DNA of 64,000 nt from Cupriavidus necator A5-1 (GTDB lineage Bacteria > Pseudomonadota > Gammaproteobacteria > Burkholderiales > Burkholderiaceae), in the NCBI RefSeq assembly GCF_000744095.1, contig NZ_JQLI01000008.1, positions 3,162,001 through 3,226,000 of the forward strand, in the 5' to 3' direction. The notes under the pieces were generated by a model that was not told the origin of the DNA, did not search any database, and was given only the letters and a program-made list of their open reading frames with translations. Positions 31,295 through 45,494 of this stretch are shown here, piece by piece (positions within the stretch are counted from its first letter, which is position 1; every line of letters begins with the position of its first letter). The translations under genes were made by a program, and so were the position numbers.

Positions 31295-31543
31295 TTACGC
31301 AGGTGATGCGGCTCGGACCGCGCTGGCGGATGCGGCCTTCAATTCGCCGAAGATGTCGGGGCGCAGGGCTTCGAGCCGAACGAGCCCGCCGCTCTGCGCC
31401 GCCAGATTGCGCGCCAGGGGCCCGCTTGCCTTCGAGTGGCCGCCGGAGAGCTGGAAGAGATATGCCACGGTGGTTCCGCATCGCTGCGCGTAGCTTTCCT
31501 TCTGCTCAGGCGACAGCGTTTTCATGTATTCGGCGAGGGTCAT
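31295..31543 (-). CDS. Cro-like (YdaS-type) helix-turn-helix regulator
   Basis: An 82-residue protein (MTLAEYMKTLSPEQKESYAQRCGTTVAYLFQLSGGHSKASGPLARNLAAQSGGLVRLEALRPDIF). The FAxRCGTTxxYLxQLxxG...S..LA..IE..S.G.V..E.LRPD pattern is the YdaS/Cro family. It is the first gene from the leftward promoter, so it occupies the cro slot and should bind the TTTAGT operators to antagonise the repressor. Confidence 0.8.
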   Translation of the reverse strand: MTLAEYMKTLSPEQKESYAQRCGTTVAYLFQLSGGHSKASGPLARNLAAQSGGLVRLEALRPDIFGELKAASASAVRAASPA

Positions 31544-31574
31544 TTCGTGCCTCTATGTGAACCCGGTCACCGTA

Positions 31575-31603
31575 ACTTTAGTTCATTACTAAATATCAGG
31601 CAA
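31575..31603 (-). promoter_or_regulatory. Leftward early promoter (PR-like) with operator over the -10
   Basis: Minus strand: TTGCCT (31598-31603), 17 bases, TAAAGT (31575-31580). The palindrome TTTAGT-TCATT-ACTAAA (31577-31593) covers the -10 region. It reads into the cro-like gene. A mirror image of this arrangement occurs at 33771-33799. Predicted from sequence only. Confidence 0.65.
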
Positions 31604-31609
31604 GGGATC

Positions 31610-31642
31610 TTTAGTGATCCACGCATTTCGCTGAGCACTAAA
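31610..31642. promoter_or_regulatory. Second operator pair between cro and repressor
   Basis: TTTAGTG (31610-31616) and CACTAAA (31636-31642) form an inverted pair 19 bases apart in front of the repressor start (31661). These halves match those of the main palindrome. Binding here could autoregulate the repressor. Confidence 0.5.
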
Positions 31643-31660
31643 GCATGTTGGAATGCCGCC

Positions 31661-32203
31661 ATGGACATCCACGAGATCCGCAGGGCGCATTTGCGCGAAC
31701 TGACGAGGGAGAGAGGCTCCAAGGCCAAGCTGGCTAAGCTTTCCGAATCGTCCCCTGCATACATCAGCCAGGTGCTGAGCGAGACGACGAAGGCCAACGT
31801 CGGGGACGACCTGGCCCGCAGGATCGAACGCGCCTATGGAAAGCCGCGCGGCTGGATGGATCAGATTGGGACGCTAGAGGACCGGGAGACAGCGGCCCGG
31901 GTGGATGTACCACCGGCGCCTGTTCGCCGCGCGATCACGGAGGACGATCTACTCGAAGCCTTTGCCCTCCTCCGGGCTCTCTCCGAAGGCGCAAAGCGCG
32001 TCGCCATTGCCCAAATTAAGGCGCTCGCAGATCTGGATTCAGAAAAGCTTAATTCAGCACCTGCCGAAAACGCCACGGAACGTGATACCGTTGCCTCACG
32101 CACTTATGCCGAGAATGTCTCAAAACAAAGACAAAGGCTAAAGAGCACGCTCGAAGGTGGGGTCAACCGTGCAGGCACACGTCACAAATCTGGTGGTGGA
32201 TAG
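31661..32203 (+). CDS. CI-like repressor (XRE family, no peptidase domain)
   Basis: A 180-residue protein starting MDIHEIRRAHLRELTRERGSKAKLAKLSESSPAYISQVLSE at 31661. Residues 15-60 form an XRE helix-turn-helix. There is no LexA/S24 serine-lysine peptidase domain of the lambda type; the C-terminus is a charged helical region (ITEDDLLEAFALLRALSEGAKRVAIAQIKALADL) and a polar tail. So RecA-driven self-cleavage is unlikely and induction must work another way. It is divergent from cro across the operators. The second small gene starts within its 3' end. Confidence 0.8.
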   Translation: MDIHEIRRAHLRELTRERGSKAKLAKLSESSPAYISQVLSETTKANVGDDLARRIERAYGKPRGWMDQIGTLEDRETAARVDVPPAPVRRAITEDDLLEAFALLRALSEGAKRVAIAQIKALADLDSEKLNSAPAENATERDTVASRTYAENVSKQRQRLKSTLEGGVNRAGTRHKSGGG

Positions 32204-32405
32204 GGAGGCTGTCGAAATCGCGCAGGAGTTGTTGCGCAAAGCCACAGCGGGGGAACTCTGTGGCCTTGCGTTTGTGGCGAGGACAGTACACCGGGGATAC
32301 GAATTCGTTCTGACAGGCAATTTCAAGGCAAACCCCTTGGAAGCGGCCGGGGCGGCCGGATTGCTGGGCACGTTGGCCGAGCAGCAAGCCATTGAGCGCC
32401 TCTAG
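32157..32405 (+). CDS. Small phage protein downstream of repressor
   Basis: An 82-residue protein starting at GTG 32157, overlapping the repressor gene's last 47 bases. It has LVVDREAVEIAQELLRKATAGELCGLAFVARTVHRGYEFVLTGNFKANPLEAAGAAGLLGTLAEQQA. The A-x-x-L-L-x-x-A-x-x-G-E-[LI]-x-G-[LI]-A-[YF]-V pattern recurs in small proteins of lambdoid lysogeny regions. Function unknown. Overlap implies co-expression with the repressor in the lysogen. Confidence 0.6.
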   Translation: MGSTVQAHVTNLVVDREAVEIAQELLRKATAGELCGLAFVARTVHRGYEFVLTGNFKANPLEAAGAAGLLGTLAEQQAIERL

Positions 32406-32505
32406 CAGTCACCAGCGGCGGACCTGTTGCGATTTCGCAGCACCCACACAAGGGGTATAGGGAATGTCCTTACGGGCCGTGCGACCGTGCCCTCCTTCCC
32501 GGGTT

Positions 32506-33540
32506 CTAGAGCTGCTGTTCGAACATCTGGTCGCGAGCGGCAGCAGGCGCGTGCTCCAGCTGCGGCCCACGAATCTCGCCAGCTGACCACCTCCCCTGCG
32601 ATAGCCGGACAATCCGCTCCGCCAGCGCAATGCAAACCCAGCCCATAGCGATGCCAGCAAGGCCGTCGACGGCGTAGTGCCAAGCCAGCACAACGGTCGA
32701 TATCCAAATGAGGATCGTCCAGGGAATTGCAGCCCAAAGCGCCTTCGGCCAGTGACGAGCCACAAGCCAGGTTGCCATCGCGGTAAGCGCGACATGAAGG
32801 CTGGGCGTGGCCATAGTTCCGTAGAGCAAGCCGTTCTGTCGAACCTCACCCGCCTGGTGCCGCCCGAGATATTCCTGTAGCTCCCTGCTCAGGGAGCCAT
32901 CGAGGTACCCGAACAACTCCGGGTGATAGTACTCGGGGCCTGCGACCGGAAACACCATCGCAATAATCGTGGTGGCATAGAAAGCCAGGACGATCGCAAT
33001 GGCGAGCTCCATGTAGCTGCTCACCTTTTCGGTTTTGACCAGCGCAGCGACAACCAATAGAACGAACACCCACATCATGTAATAAATGGCCTCCCAAAAG
33101 GCCACGGGCAAGGCATTGGAGGCGATGACGAGCCGAAACAGGGGTTCCTCCAAGTCCCACAGGGCCTTGTCGTACCAGACTGTCGACGTGGTGCGGTACA
33201 CCTCGACCAAGTTCGCATTCCCGCTGATGGCCAGAACGACGAGGTACACCACGACACTGCCGACCACGATGCTGGAAGGCTTCACGACCGCCCGCCATAG
33301 CGCCGCCAGATCTACATGGCCACTGTCCTTGTCGATGTACTTGCGCACCAGCAAGACCGATTCGATAACGACCAGCAGTGACAGCAGGAGCAGAAAGCAA
33401 AATGTGTAGACGGCCGCCGCGACGATGTGATGCAGGGTCAGCAGCCCTATAGATAGCGCGCCGGCAATAAGGTGGGATGCGACTGACAGCATCATCCCCA
33501 CCATGACGAGCGGCATTATTGCGCGAGCGAAATTTCTCAT
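32506..33540 (-). CDS. PAP2_3-type multi-pass membrane protein within the immunity region
   Basis: A 344-residue protein with about seven predicted membrane segments (for example 10-30, 40-65, 88-106, 147-169, 178-200, 268-286, 290-306). It carries PSLH (246-249) and HYAVD (288-292), the second and third motifs of the PAP2/inositolphosphotransferase superfamily. Catalytic His are His249 and His288. It might act on a lipid phosphate or envelope lipid. It is minus strand, flanked by the repressor and the rightward operator, with its own GGGGG ribosome site. Position between the operators suggests expression in the lysogen, so superinfection exclusion or lysogenic conversion is a fair guess. Confidence 0.75.
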   Translation of the reverse strand: MRNFARAIMPLVMVGMMLSVASHLIAGALSIGLLTLHHIVAAAVYTFCFLLLLSLLVVIESVLLVRKYIDKDSGHVDLAALWRAVVKPSSIVVGSVVVYLVVLAISGNANLVEVYRTTSTVWYDKALWDLEEPLFRLVIASNALPVAFWEAIYYMMWVFVLLVVAALVKTEKVSSYMELAIAIVLAFYATTIIAMVFPVAGPEYYHPELFGYLDGSLSRELQEYLGRHQAGEVRQNGLLYGTMATPSLHVALTAMATWLVARHWPKALWAAIPWTILIWISTVVLAWHYAVDGLAGIAMGWVCIALAERIVRLSQGRWSAGEIRGPQLEHAPAAARDQMFEQQL

Positions 33541-33747
33541 AGTGCCCCCTTGGCTGTTTGTTTTCGCAGGCAGCCCGCCTGAGCGGACGGAGGCCGGTCT
33601 GCTAGGCTGACCCGCCCGCGGGCTCCCCCTGGCCCGTCTTTGCTGGGCAAGCGTAGACCGTGGACGGTAAGCGTCATATAGGCCAAACGATCTACCCCCT
33701 TCACCCGCCCCGTCCGGCTGACGTCCGCCGCTTCCGCGCGCAAGCAC

Positions 33748-33761
33748 ACTAAATATTTAGC
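33748..33761. promoter_or_regulatory. Extra operator half-site pair upstream of PAP2 gene
   Basis: ACTAAA-TA-TTTAGC (33748-33761) is an outward-facing pair of the same half-sites, ten bases before the -35 box of the rightward promoter. It may let the repressor or Cro influence the PAP2 promoter. Confidence 0.4.
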
Positions 33762-33770
33762 AAATTACTA

Positions 33771-33799
33771 TTGCATTTACTTTAGTGCTTGACTAAAGT
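33771..33799 (+). promoter_or_regulatory. Rightward early promoter (PL-like) with operator over the -10
   Basis: TTGCAT (33771-33776), 17 bases, TAAAGT (33794-33799). The palindrome TTTAGT-GCTTG-ACTAAA (33781-33797) overlies the -10. It mirrors the promoter at 31575-31603 in box spacing, -10 sequence and operator position. It drives the plus-strand early operon beginning at 33834. Confidence 0.65.
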
Positions 33800-33833
33800 T
33801 CTCCCAACAGCGCACCACATCCGGGAGAACTCC

Positions 33834-33965
33834 ATGCGACCCAGCACCCTCCTTCTCACCTGCATCACCGCGATCCTCGTGGTTGGTGCCGTCGCCCTGG
33901 TGCTCCTGCCGACCATGGCGGAACTGCAGCACGTCCTGACCGCCACCCTTTCCGTCACTAAGTAA
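33834..33965 (+). CDS. 43-residue membrane protein, first gene of the plus-strand operon
   Basis: ATG 33834 follows GGGAGA. Product MRPSTLLLTCITAILVVGAVALVLLPTMAELQHVLTATLSVTK. About residues 5-26 are one membrane segment. It is the first product from the PL-like promoter. Small early membrane proteins are often exclusion or toxic factors, but nothing shows that here. Confidence 0.5.
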   Translation: MRPSTLLLTCITAILVVGAVALVLLPTMAELQHVLTATLSVTK

Positions 33966-33975
33966 GGAGCCGGCC

Positions 33976-34119
33976 ATGCCCACCACCCTGCCCGCCTACG
34001 CCGTTGTCTACACGCTGCTCGGCTGCCGCTGCGTCACCCGCTTCGACAAGCTGACCGACGCCCTCATCTTCGCCGTCCGCGCGGAGAACGACGGCTGCAC
34101 CGACATTTCCGTGCACTGA
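33976..34119 (+). CDS. 47-residue phage protein
   Basis: ATG 33976, ten bases after the previous stop, with AAGGAG nearby. Product MPTTLPAYAVVYTLLGCRCVTRFDKLTDALIFAVRAENDGCTDISVH. A compact alpha/beta-like pattern with three cysteines. It has no known relatives that I recall. Confidence 0.45.
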   Translation: MPTTLPAYAVVYTLLGCRCVTRFDKLTDALIFAVRAENDGCTDISVH

Positions 34120-34132
34120 GGAGCCCCCGGCC

Positions 34133-34480
34133 ATGAACCACCAACAGGCCCGGGCAGACATCGCCGCGCAGATCGCGCTCGGCAATGTCGAATCCTTCTG
34201 CGAAGGCGATGACGCCATCCGCCACCTCAGCAAGCTCTTCATCGTGCGGAACACCCGCCGCCGCGCCGGCGAATCCGATGCCGCCTATGCAGTTCGGGTC
34301 GGCTCCTTGCTGACAGACATGCTCGACGCGATCGGGCAGGTGCTGGTCGGCGCCAACGTCAAGTACGTCCTCGCGGACGCCGCGGAGCAACCCTTGATCT
34401 GCCGCACCCGTGAGGCCTCCCTGCTGGCTGTCAGCCGTCAGGTTCAGCAAGACGTCTTGATGGCACGAGGTGTGGCATGA
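34133..34480 (+). CDS. Phage early protein, unknown
   Basis: A 115-residue mainly helical protein (MNHQQARADIAAQIALGNVESFCEGDDAIRHLSKLFIVRNTRRRAGESDAAYAVRVGSLLTDMLDAIGQVLVG ...). It is preceded by GAGGAG and overlaps the next gene by 4 bases. No cysteine cluster or membrane segment. Function unknown. Confidence 0.5.
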   Translation: MNHQQARADIAAQIALGNVESFCEGDDAIRHLSKLFIVRNTRRRAGESDAAYAVRVGSLLTDMLDAIGQVLVGANVKYVLADAAEQPLICRTREASLLAVSRQVQQDVLMARGVA

Positions 34481-38228: not shown

Positions 38229-40007
38229 ATGATTCGCGACCAGTTCCTGCTCGACATTGCACCTGAGCTCATCATCGACAACTTCGCCGGCGGCGGTGGT
38301 GCCAGCTGCGGCATTGAGTTGGCCCTCGGCCGCCACGTCGACATCGCGGTCAACCACGACCCTGAGGCCGTGGCGATGCACGCCATGAACCACCCCCAAA
38401 CCGAGCACCACTGCGAAAGCGTGTGGGATGTGGACCCGCTCGACCTGGTGAAGGGGCGGCCGGTCGGCCTCGCCTGGTTCAGCCCGGACTGCAAGCATTT
38501 CAGCAAGGCCAAAGGCGGCAAGCCGCGCGACAAGAAGATCCGGGGCCTCGCCTGGGTGGCAATGCGCTGGGCGGCGCTGGTACGGCCGCGCGTCATCATC
38601 CTAGAGAACGTGGAAGAGTTCCAGACGTGGGGCCCGGTGCTGGCCGACGGGAACCCGTGCCCGAAGCGCAAGGGCGACACCTTCCGCTCTTTCGTGCGCC
38701 AGCTGCATGAGAAGGGCTACGCCGTCGAATGGCGCGAACTGCGCGCCTGCGACTATGGCGCGCCGACAATCAGGAAACGCCTGTTCTTGATCGCCCGTTG
38801 CGATGGCAAACCCATCGTCTGGCCGGAGCCGACGCACGGTGCACCGGACAGCGCCGCGGTGAAGGCGAGGCAGCGCAAGCCGTGGCGCACGGCCGCCGAG
38901 TGCATCGACTGGTCGATCCCTTGCCCGTCGATCTTCGAGCGCGCCCGCCCGCTGGCTGAGGCCACGGAGCGCCGGATCGCGCGCGGCCTGCGCCGGTATG
39001 TCATCGGTGCCGCCGATCCGTATGTTGTGAAGCTGCCTGCCAGCGCCGCGGCGCCGATCTTGACCGAGTGCGCCAACGCGTCCGGCCAGCGCAGCTTCCG
39101 CGCCGACGAGCCGCTGCGCACGCAGTGCGCCGAGGTCAAGGGCGGGCACTTCGCGCTGGCGTCCGCGACTCTGGTGCAGACCGGCTATGGCGAACGTCCC
39201 GGCCAAGCGCCGCGCGCGCCGGGGCTGGACAAGCCGCTGGGCACGGCCGTCGCCGGCGGCGTTAAGCATGCGCTGGTTTCAGCCTTCCTCGCCAAGCACT
39301 ACGGCGGCAACGAGACGCCCGGCGCAGACCTACGCGACCCGACCAGCACCATCACCGCCAAGGATCATCACGCTCTGGTGACGGCCCAGCTCGTGGGCTG
39401 CGGAGGCCGCGCCGGCCAGAGCAGGCCGCGCGACGCGGGCGAGCCGATGCAGACGATCACTGCCAAGGGTGACACCGCCATCGCCACGTCGCACTTGGTG
39501 AAGCTGCGCGGCGAGTGCACCGGCAGCTCGACCGACGCGCCGGCAACGACTGTGACCGCCGGTGGTACGCACATCGGCGAGGTTCGCGCCTTCCTGGTGA
39601 AGTACTACAGCGAGGGCGGCCAGGATCAGGACTGCCGCGACCCGATGCACACCATCCCGACCAAGGACCGACTCGGCCTGGTGACCGTGGCAGGCGAGCA
39701 GTACCAGATCGCCGACATCGGCATGCGCATGCTGGTCCCGCCTGAGCTGTACCGGGCCCAAGGCTTCCCCAGCACATACATCTTTGCCCCAACCATCGAC
39801 CCAGCCGATCCGCTGCTGGCGTTCGTACGCGAAGCCCTGATGCGCATCGGGAAGATGAAGGCTTACCGCCTGCCGCAGCACGCTCAGGTCCGTATGTGTG
39901 GCAACAGTGTCAGCCCGCCGATGGCTGCCGCACTGGTTCGTGCCAACGTGCCTGAGATGGCCAGCTGGACGGCGAAGGAATCGAAGGCGATCAAGGAGGC
40001 AGCGTGA
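38229..40007 (+). CDS. C5 DNA (cytosine) methyltransferase
   Basis: A 592-residue protein. Motif I is NFAGGGGASCG (18-28); motif IV is WFSPDCKHFSKAKGG (83-97) with catalytic Cys88 in an atypical SPDC context; ENV (126-128) is motif VI; GAPTIRKRLF (177-186) is motif VIII; GNSVSPPMAAAL near the C-terminus is motif X. The long region 292-487 between motifs VIII and X is the target domain and is repetitive. There is no restriction gene nearby, so it probably protects phage DNA or acts as a regulator. Recognition sequence unknown. It overlaps DUF5131 by 4 bases. Confidence 0.9.
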   Translation: MIRDQFLLDIAPELIIDNFAGGGGASCGIELALGRHVDIAVNHDPEAVAMHAMNHPQTEHHCESVWDVDPLDLVKGRPVGLAWFSPDCKHFSKAKGGKPRDKKIRGLAWVAMRWAALVRPRVIILENVEEFQTWGPVLADGNPCPKRKGDTFRSFVRQLHEKGYAVEWRELRACDYGAPTIRKRLFLIARCDGKPIVWPEPTHGAPDSAAVKARQRKPWRTAAECIDWSIPCPSIFERARPLAEATERRIARGLRRYVIGAADPYVVKLPASAAAPILTECANASGQRSFRADEPLRTQCAEVKGGHFALASATLVQTGYGERPGQAPRAPGLDKPLGTAVAGGVKHALVSAFLAKHYGGNETPGADLRDPTSTITAKDHHALVTAQLVGCGGRAGQSRPRDAGEPMQTITAKGDTAIATSHLVKLRGECTGSSTDAPATTVTAGGTHIGEVRAFLVKYYSEGGQDQDCRDPMHTIPTKDRLGLVTVAGEQYQIADIGMRMLVPPELYRAQGFPSTYIFAPTIDPADPLLAFVREALMRIGKMKAYRLPQHAQVRMCGNSVSPPMAAALVRANVPEMASWTAKESKAIKEAA

Positions 40008-43315: not shown

Positions 43316-43560
43316 ACGGCCTCGGCGTCGGCACCTATCTCACGATGGCCGAGCTCGCAGAGTTGGTCGGCTGCCAGCCGACCAGCCACAGCTGCATGAA
43401 GCGCTGGCTCAAGAAGCACGGCTGGCCCTTCGCAGTGAATATAGCCGGGGTGCCTCAGGTGAGCCGCGCATACTACGCGGCCCGCATGACCGGGGCCGCC
43501 AACCAGAGCGCCAACGATGGCGCCGAAGACGAACCAAACTTTGAAGCACTGCTCGCATGA
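43312..43560 (+). CDS. Excisionase-like DUF4224 protein
   Basis: An 82-residue protein: YLTMAELAELVGCQPTSHSCMKRWLKKHGWPFAVNIAGVPQVSRAYYAARM. The L-T-x-x-E-L-x-x-L-x-G-x-x-x-x-x-x-x-x-x-W-L-x-x-x-G-x-x-F-x-x-x-x-x-G-x-P-x-V-x-R pattern is that of DUF4224 proteins found immediately before tyrosine integrases and thought to act as directionality factors. It overlaps the integrase by 4 bases. Confidence 0.75.
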   Translation: MNGLGVGTYLTMAELAELVGCQPTSHSCMKRWLKKHGWPFAVNIAGVPQVSRAYYAARMTGAANQSANDGAEDEPNFEALLA

Positions 43561-44654
43561 TTTCCCGCCGCAAGACTCCTGATGGCCTGCCGTTTCGCTT
43601 GTACCGGCGTGAGGGGAAATTCAAGGTCAGCTATGGGTACAAGTTGCCGAACGGAACGTGGGCATTCCGCCTGACCGCTCAGCGCAACAACCCCGATGCT
43701 GTTGCCGAGATCGACCAGGAAGCGCGCCGGCGCGCCGATGAACTGAACGGCAACTTCGTGCTGGCGGGAACCACCGAAGCCCTGATCAACGAGTACTTCA
43801 AATGGCAAACCCGTCTGCCCGCTGACAGCGAAATGCGAAAGGCGGACATCACGCTGACCGAAAATCGCGTTGAGGCCAAAAACCTGATCAAGGTGTTCGG
43901 CAAGGTCAAGCCTGCGTCGATCAAGCCCCACCACATCTACCGGTATCTGGATCGGCGAGCCGAGCTCGGTGCTCCGGCCAAGGCCAACAAAGAGATCGCC
44001 CTGCTGTCTGCTGTGCTCGAGTACGGGCGCCGCTTGGGTGAGCTGCAGATCAACCCCTGCCGCGGCATCAAGTACAACCCGACTCGGCCACGGCAAAAGT
44101 ATGTCCAGCCTCATGAGATCGCTCTCGCGCTAGAGATTGGCCGGGCCCGCGGCGGCAGCTACCTGGTACTCGCGCTCTGCGTGCACGTGGCCTACCTGAC
44201 TGTCAGCCGACCGGAAGAGATGCGCACCCTCGTTAGGCAGTCCTCGACCGAAGAGGGTCTCGTGGTTCCCGTTGGCAAGCGAAAGGGCGGCCAGATCCAG
44301 CGCACGAAGCTCGTTCGCTGGTCGCCTGCCCTGCGGAGCGCCGTGAACGAGGCTCTGGCCCTGCAGCGAACGGCGAGCGTCTATGTGTTCGGCAATACGT
44401 CGGGACAGGTGTACAGCCGCAGCGGCTGGAACACGATCTGGAAACGGCTGATGGGCTACTGCCAGGCAGCTGCCACTGAGCGCGAAATTGAGTTCAGCCC
44501 GTTCACTCTGGCCGACATGCGCCCCAGCGCCGTGACTGACCGGATGGAGGAAGGCGACGACCGCATCACGGACGCCACCGGCCACGCCGACGGCAAGATG
44601 GTGGCCAAGGTTTATGACAGGCGCAGGGTCCGGAAGGTGCGGCCAACCGCTTAG
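43557..44654 (+). CDS. Tyrosine integrase
   Basis: A 365-residue recombinase. N-terminal arm-binding domain (MISRRKTPDGLPFRLYRREGKFKVSYGYKLPNG), core-binding helices (about 85-160), catalytic domain from about 185. Catalytic residues: Arg218 (SRPEE), a D-M-R322 in place of the usual H-x-x-R, His343 (TGHAD) and nucleophile Tyr353 (KVYDRR). The first histidine of the HxxR motif is replaced, as in a known phage subgroup with K/A there. It integrates the phage, probably at the nearby tRNA-His. It overlaps the convergent DUF4145 gene by 4 bases. Confidence 0.92.
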   Translation: MISRRKTPDGLPFRLYRREGKFKVSYGYKLPNGTWAFRLTAQRNNPDAVAEIDQEARRRADELNGNFVLAGTTEALINEYFKWQTRLPADSEMRKADITLTENRVEAKNLIKVFGKVKPASIKPHHIYRYLDRRAELGAPAKANKEIALLSAVLEYGRRLGELQINPCRGIKYNPTRPRQKYVQPHEIALALEIGRARGGSYLVLALCVHVAYLTVSRPEEMRTLVRQSSTEEGLVVPVGKRKGGQIQRTKLVRWSPALRSAVNEALALQRTASVYVFGNTSGQVYSRSGWNTIWKRLMGYCQAAATEREIEFSPFTLADMRPSAVTDRMEEGDDRITDATGHADGKMVAKVYDRRRVRKVRPTA

Positions 44655-45380: not shown

Positions 45381-45417
45381 AGTCAGTGACCCTTAACCTT
45401 GGAACCTAATAAATACT

Positions 45418-45494
45418 TGGGGTGGCTGATGGGACTCGAACCCACGACGACAGGAATCACAATCCTGGACTCTACCAACTGAGCTACAGCCACC
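45418..45494 (-). tRNA. tRNA-His (GTG anticodon)
   Basis: The minus strand gives a complete cloverleaf: acceptor GGTGGCTG with the extra G-1 and C73 typical of tRNA-His, D-arm with AGCTCAGTTGGTAGAG, anticodon arm GGATTGTGATTCC (GTG, histidine), T-arm with GTTCGAACCC, and encoded CCA (45418-45420). The 3' end faces the prophage. tRNA 3' ends are favourite integration sites, and the integrase lies about 760 bases away. Confidence 0.97.

Follow-up and report, generated by a model that had tools for sequence, protein, structure and literature searches.

A predicted Aur1-like PAP2_3 membrane protein encoded in a variable cargo slot beside a prophage repressor gene in Cupriavidus necator

Introduction

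What does a temperate phage gain from a membrane enzyme of the PAP2 superfamily, encoded inside its immunity region? The question is raised by an open reading frame in Cupriavidus necator A5-1, which lies within a stretch of 64,000 nucleotides (contig NZ_JQLI01000008.1, positions 3,162,001 to 3,226,000; hereafter the window). The original prediction described its product as a seven-segment, PAP2-type lipid phosphatase-like protein lying where lambda keeps rex, and suggested that expression in the lysogen would serve superinfection exclusion or the alteration of envelope lipids or LPS. We have examined the gene, its family and predicted fold, the same place in related prophages, and the loci in which its relatives are found.

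The immunity region

The window contains prophage genes that match PHROG families for integrase, replication protein, terminase, portal, head protease, tape measure and endolysin. The immunity region has the following features, with all positions given in the window.

31295-31543, reverse strand: small regulator gene, divergent from the repressor gene (PHROG "transcriptional repressor" at 1.9e-4, with two better matches of unknown function); we take it to be Cro-like from its position
31576-31594, no strand: operator-like palindrome on the repressor side (pattern CTTTAGTN5ACTAAA), between the divergent repressor and small regulator genes
31626-31643, no strand: weaker operator-like palindrome in the same intergenic region
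31661-32203, forward strand: phage repressor gene (PHROG matches "transcriptional regulator" and "repressor")
32169-32405, forward strand: conserved small open reading frame that overlaps the 3' end of the repressor gene and forms the left border of the cargo slot
32506-33540, reverse strand: gene for the PAP2_3/Aur1-like membrane enzyme (P0001), ATG start, 344 amino acids (from the open reading frame list, Pfam and the structure model)
33545-33551, reverse strand: ribosome-binding-like AAGGGGG, 4 bases 5' of the ATG at 33540, read from the letters
33780-33798, no strand: operator-like palindrome on the side of the rightward operon (CTTTAGTN5ACTAAA pattern)
33834-33965, forward strand: called gene with which the conserved rightward operon begins (gene calling and sister comparison)

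With up to two mismatches allowed, the palindrome pattern has five matches in the window, which fall at three places once the strands of each palindrome are merged. The expected number is 0.06, and none of 100 shuffles reached five. The gene is therefore flanked, as had been proposed, by the repressor gene and a rightward operator-like site. It is antisense to the repressor gene and converges on its 3' end. In lambda, rexAB is transcribed together with cI, on the same strand; since the PAP2_3 gene lies on the strand opposite the repressor gene, it can have no transcript in common with it. The comparison with the rex slot thus holds for the place and fails for the regulation, and a Rex-like operon is ruled out.

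The reading frame itself is real, with 344 amino acids from the ATG at 33540, and its product matches Pfam PAP2_3 (PF14378) well above the curated cut-off (E 2.2e-23; 83.5 bits against 27). The choice of start is less certain: a GTG start would extend the protein to 413 amino acids, and the gene caller picks an ATG 24 bases inward, at 33516, which gives 336. Codon use resembles that of the neighbouring genes. These features bear on whether the gene is an inert passenger, recently captured and neither expressed nor functional. Its G+C content (59.0%) lies below that of the prophage (63.5%), though the repressor gene is equally low (59.3%), and a consensus scan of 31400-34200, which is weak for G+C-rich hosts, found no promoter or terminator patterns. 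The low G+C, the lack of a promoter pattern and the single copy found in phage data (see below) would all suit a passenger; the open frame, the ribosome-binding-like site 5' of the ATG, and the conserved residues kept at 55-56% identity to the nearest relative argue against one, and we consider it improbable.

Family, motifs and predicted fold

P0001 also matches the PAP2 profile (5.7e-10; 39.5 bits against a cut-off of 27.2). The two motifs that had been read as catalytic, PSLH and HYAVD, were both found by script, and the earlier numbering of His249 and His288 is correct.

32665-32679, reverse strand: HYAVD, with the predicted catalytic His288 and Asp292 (residues 288-292; script search)
32794-32805, reverse strand: PSLH, with the predicted catalytic His249 (residues 246-249; script search)
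32935-32952, reverse strand: FPVAGP (residues 197-202; script search)

The His/His/Asp triad of H249, H288 and D292, which belongs to C2 and C3 of the PAP2 superfamily, is intact. Besides the triad, D124, Y153, G201, P202 and W287 are conserved in all 76 aligned rows. Rows were pre-filtered for PSLH- and HYAVD-type motifs and for length, which removed five of 80 relatives (L055, L058, L093 and L097, without PS[LMF]H or HYxxD, and the short L101), so the invariance at PSLH and HYAVD is partly a product of selection.

The classical motifs of PAP2 phosphatases are K-x6-R-P (C1) and S-R-x5-H-x3-D (C3). Neither is matched in P0001, whose C3 stretch reads STVVLAWHYAVD. K-x6-R-P occurs somewhere in three of the 76 rows, and position 282, which holds the Arg of the classical C3, is Ser in 52 rows, Thr in 24 and Arg in none. 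This speaks against a lipid phosphate phosphatase of the classical kind, whether like LpxE, PgpB or undecaprenyl diphosphatase, with lipid A or the carrier lipid as its substrate, as does the style of the motifs that are present: in the profile alignment, PSLH and S-T-x5-H-Y occur as in AUR1, a profile that P0001 matches at 5.4e-6. On the side of such a phosphatase is an NCBIfam LpxE match, which is weak (5.3e-4; 19.7 bits against a cut-off of 177). The NCBIfam model for phosphoinositol dihydroceramide synthase, NF052609, is absent among the P0001 matches at E <= 1, and four of the 76 rows match it (best 2.9e-8).

An AlphaFold2 model of P0001 made with 76 sequences (pLDDT 92.2, pTM 0.88) was used for fold searches, while a one-sequence model (pLDDT 50.5) was left out. 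The 76-sequence model has, by our count, about eight membrane-length helices, and the hydropathy plot has nine peaks, some overlapping, so the count of seven segments does not hold. The best solved fold is that of Aur1 (9vj4, Z 16.6, rmsd 5.0, 241 residues aligned, model residues 5-313), and the second is again Aur1 (9ivc, Z 16.1, rmsd 6.5, 251 residues). LpxE (6ebu) aligns with Z 14.0 and rmsd 2.6 over 162 residues, covering model residues 121-310; below it in the list are G6PC1, a sphingomyelin synthase-related protein and PgpB (8bm3, Z 11.4; 4px7, Z 9.2). Foldseek returned a single match below 1e-3, Aur1 9ivc at 3.6e-4, with a TM of 0.40 that denotes a loose global superposition. No BFVD entry matched below 1e-3, the best being a Terrestrivirus PAP2 protein at 0.018.

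The core of LpxE fits more tightly than that of Aur1, which counts in favour of a phosphatase, and the catalytic core alone is therefore not decisive. Against this, the Aur1 alignment reaches from residue 5 to 313 and that of LpxE only from 121 to 310. In the model, the N-terminal helices together with the motif style favour Aur1 over LpxE, and we regard a classical phosphatase as quite unlikely. Of the protein as first described, the PAP2_3 assignment with its catalytic residues stands; as modelled, P0001 belongs to a Tad-linked lineage and would better go by the name of an Aur1-like PAP2_3 protein. Judging from the predicted fold and the intact triad, it is probably an active lipid-phosphate enzyme.

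A variable slot in sister prophages

Sister prophages were found by searches with the flanking genes, and four of their slots were compared (L025, L032, L033 and L163). Two more distant repressor matches with different gene content, L026 and L027, were excluded from the sister count. When two flank proteins were searched against 398 genomes of the family, three further matches appeared that do not belong to the own genome, all of them weak (L156, L157 and L160). The comparison defines one further feature.

32406-33823, no strand: variable cargo slot, where neither L025 nor L032 matches at the DNA level; the L033 match resumes earlier, at 33737

The window is 91% identical to L025 (IMGVR 2751185824) up to 32404 and 90% again from 33833. 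For L032 the figures are 67% up to 32403 and 85% from 33824, and for L033 75% up to 32396 and 79% from 33737. The flanks are thus common to three sisters with a non-homologous insert between them, as is expected of a moron or hotspot cargo, and since the flanks are alike and the contents differ, we read the interval as a variable cargo slot. That the PAP2_3 gene is lysogeny cargo (a moron) is the conclusion that we hold with the greatest confidence.

The contents of the sister slots are diverse. The slot of L025 holds a pair of HipA_2 and DUF3037 genes (L025 10847-12399), two small genes and a lipoprotein-like gene; that of L033 holds a DEDDh exonuclease gene and a lipoprotein-like gene; that of L163 encodes a 173-amino-acid protein (in a PHROG of unknown function), a secreted-looking protein and a lipoprotein-like protein; and in that of L032 no gene was called. 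Pfam matches to these occupants include HipA_2 (5.9e-84), DUF3037 (1.1e-27) and RNase_T (2.9e-10). PADLOC has no match for P0001; among the sister occupants it recognizes a candidate defence pair in L025 (PDC-M66A, 4.6e-8; PDC-M66B, 5.1e-28) and DEDDh in L033 (4.7e-26). Candidate defence genes are therefore present in two of the four sister slots, while three of the four hold or include genes without a known defence link and one is empty. The presence of candidate defence genes among the occupants makes an anti-phage role of the PAP2_3 gene more credible.

The lipoprotein-like genes (L025 13204-13929, L033 8975-9523 and L163 7633-8358) are divergent from the rightward operon and occupy the place of the PAP2_3 gene. 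Lipoprotein-like, as well as SLATT-like, is a tentative label, given in part by position.

A hotspot for antiviral systems between cI and the integrase gene has been described for a P2-related phage of Vibrionaceae (Rousset et al., 2022; PMC9122126). This hotspot adjoins cI, so that cargo beside a repressor gene is of a known kind.

Relatives and the Tad/Flp pilus loci

In the phage data searched, the PAP2_3 gene is carried by one prophage only. A tblastn search of 50,697 phage records found no relative of P0001, and PHROG has no family for it (best match 0.16). IMG/VR was scanned twice by patterns, an approach that picks up whatever has the patterns in common, and a single contig was returned; its 21,032 bases are identical to those of the window, so it comes from the same genome. 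Two other PAP2 types matched one and nine phage records, all weakly and without annotation, and four PAP2 relatives likewise have no PHROG.

Several possible sources were set aside. An ordinary phage family is ruled out by the lack of a PHROG and of any match in the phage records; spread by plasmids, by the finding of just two weak partial matches; and the genus as a source, by 60 genomes with a full-length match in the own genome only and one weak partial match elsewhere. Among 399 genomes of the order, 14 have a match to P0001 at 1e-6, and in four of these, the own genome not counted, it covers most of the protein. The 398 genomes searched in the phylum include 4 with a match, which is full-length in the own genome and partial in the other three.

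A scan of genome contigs with P0001 alone found no relative; the alignment-based scan yielded 319, of which 80 were kept. In a midpoint-rooted tree of 76 rows, P0001 pairs with a protein of Rugamonas (L038; 55-56% identity) with support of 100/98, within a group of 18 rows, mostly Betaproteobacteria, that is itself supported at 100/99. Tad/Flp genes in the flanks were marked by matches to the host's own Tad proteins. At least two lie near 12 of the 17 relatives in this clade, which are non-phage loci, against 3 of 63 other relatives, a number that still includes the five dropped from alignment and tree. The Fisher p of 4e-8 treats related loci as independent and flanks of unequal length as comparable. 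The clade loci without Tad matches are L043 and L051 (GT2, GtrA-like and methyltransferase set) and L052 (partial set); also outside the twelve are L040, a contig of 3.5 kb, and L046, which showed no marker. The linkage is seen for chromosomal relatives, the P0001 copy itself being in a prophage. That the P0001 lineage is Tad-linked is highly probable. The names CpaB, CpaC, CpaE, TadE, TadG and GtrA-like are tentative, given in part by position.

In L038 and L041, the PAP2_3 gene comes directly after a Tad-locus gene that encodes a large membrane protein and has no Pfam match, and Pfam finds GT2, a methyltransferase and Peptidase_A24 in L038. The host's own Tad locus (G000:C8:1092001-1112000) encodes Flp pilins (Pfam Flp_Fap), GT87, a homologue of the large membrane protein (39-44% identity) and matches to the GT2, GtrA-like and methyltransferase set; at E 0.001 it contains no PAP2_3 gene. 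Three other genomes of the genus (L151, L152 and L153) have, next to the Tad glycosyltransferase module, a PAP2_3 gene of a different subfamily.

Two further features lie towards the right end of the prophage.

43557-44654, forward strand: integrase gene (phrog_1)
45417-45466, no strand: right attachment site at tRNA-His, whose 50 bp are repeated without a change 1.15 kb to the left of window position 1

It is one of three tandem elements (G000:C8:3095078-3207466; L034-L037 plus window 1-45466) that have copies of the tRNA-His 3' end as their borders. About 10 kb in length, the leftmost element has an integrase 99% like that of the window prophage, and it carries a second, different PAP2_3 gene (L034 3862-4887, reverse strand) less than 1 kb inside its left end. 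At E 0.001, the genome has two PAP2_3 genes, both in tRNA-His elements. In the rightward operon, the 592-amino-acid open reading frame at 38229-40007 may encode a DNA cytosine methyltransferase, to judge by a motif.

Proposed role

We propose that P0001, with its PAP2_3/Aur1 fold, is an enzyme integral to the membrane, that its gene was captured from a lineage found mostly in Betaproteobacteria and normally housed in Tad/Flp-pilus loci beside glycosyltransferase genes, and that it would serve as lysogeny cargo in the variable slot beside the repressor gene of the tRNA-His prophage. By analogy with the PAP2 and Aur1 families, a lipid-linked substrate would have its phosphate attacked by one His of the active-site triad (H249, H288 and D292) with help from the other His and the Asp, and the phospho-group or phospho-headgroup would then be released or handed to an acceptor. 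If the gene is expressed in the lysogen, an effect on the envelope or pilus is likely. Since the lineage is Tad-pilus-linked and the protein Aur1-like, we would think first of glycolipid chemistry connected with the pilus, rather than of LPS. The envelope or the Tad-pilus glycolipid of the lysogen would be altered, with reduced adsorption or DNA entry of rival phages as the leading proposed effect.

We see about an even chance that P0001 is cargo whose target is the envelope or pilus and whose leading, though not sole, use is an anti-phage one. Exclusion of competing phages, taken by itself, is a plausible but tentative suggestion. It has to be weighed against a gain for the host alone, in which P0001 alters the envelope or Tad-pilus glycolipid, with consequences for attachment, biofilm or stress tolerance, and leaves other phages unaffected. 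The Tad linkage of the clade, the absence of a PAP2_3 gene from the host Tad locus and the PAP2_3 gene in another mobile element located at this tRNA-His are all in keeping with this; the candidate defence genes in the same slot of two of the four sister prophages are not, and we find this explanation somewhat doubtful. The most specific form of our proposal, in which a temperate phage captured an Aur1-like phosphotransferase of Tad-pilus glycolipid modules that, from the immunity region, remodels the pilus or glycolipid and excludes the phages that depend on them, is unlikely in all its parts together.

The original prediction held a PAP2_3 enzyme in this role to be, as far as known, undescribed, and searches of mainly open-licence PMC papers showed no PAP2 enzyme in it. 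Within the accessible open-licence PMC literature, we likewise found no paper on the function of the PAP2_3 proteins of Tad-pilus loci. If P0001 does exclude phages, membrane-lipid or pilus-glycolipid chemistry would join the means by which prophages protect their hosts, and there would be a first handle on the role of PAP2_3 proteins in Tad-pilus loci. The cargo slot, with its HipA-like/DUF3037 pair and DEDDh exonuclease in sisters, is a compact hunting ground where this group of phages may yield new anti-phage genes.

Comparison with known systems

The PAP2_3 gene has the place of lambda rexAB, with the repressor gene on one side and a second operator or operator-like site on the other; rex is read with cI, whereas the PAP2_3 gene is antisense and convergent. 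With the antiviral hotspots of prophages (PMC9122126) the locus shares variable cargo between conserved phage genes, one of those hotspots also being beside cI, and it differs in that no PAP2 enzyme is among the cargo described in the available part of that paper. LpxE and PgpB have the catalytic core fold in common with P0001, which lacks their classical C1 motif and the Arg of C3 and has an extra N-terminal region. Aur1 (inositol phosphorylceramide synthase) resembles P0001 in fold over both the core and the N-terminal helices and in the style of the motifs PSLH and S-T-x5-H-Y-x2-D, at an identity of 18%. The Tad-linked PAP2_3 proteins, such as those of Rugamonas apoptosis (L038) and Azoarcus sp. 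Aa7 (L041), match P0001 over its full length, at 34-56% identity and with the same motifs; they are chromosomal and sit in pilus loci, whereas P0001 is encoded in a prophage.
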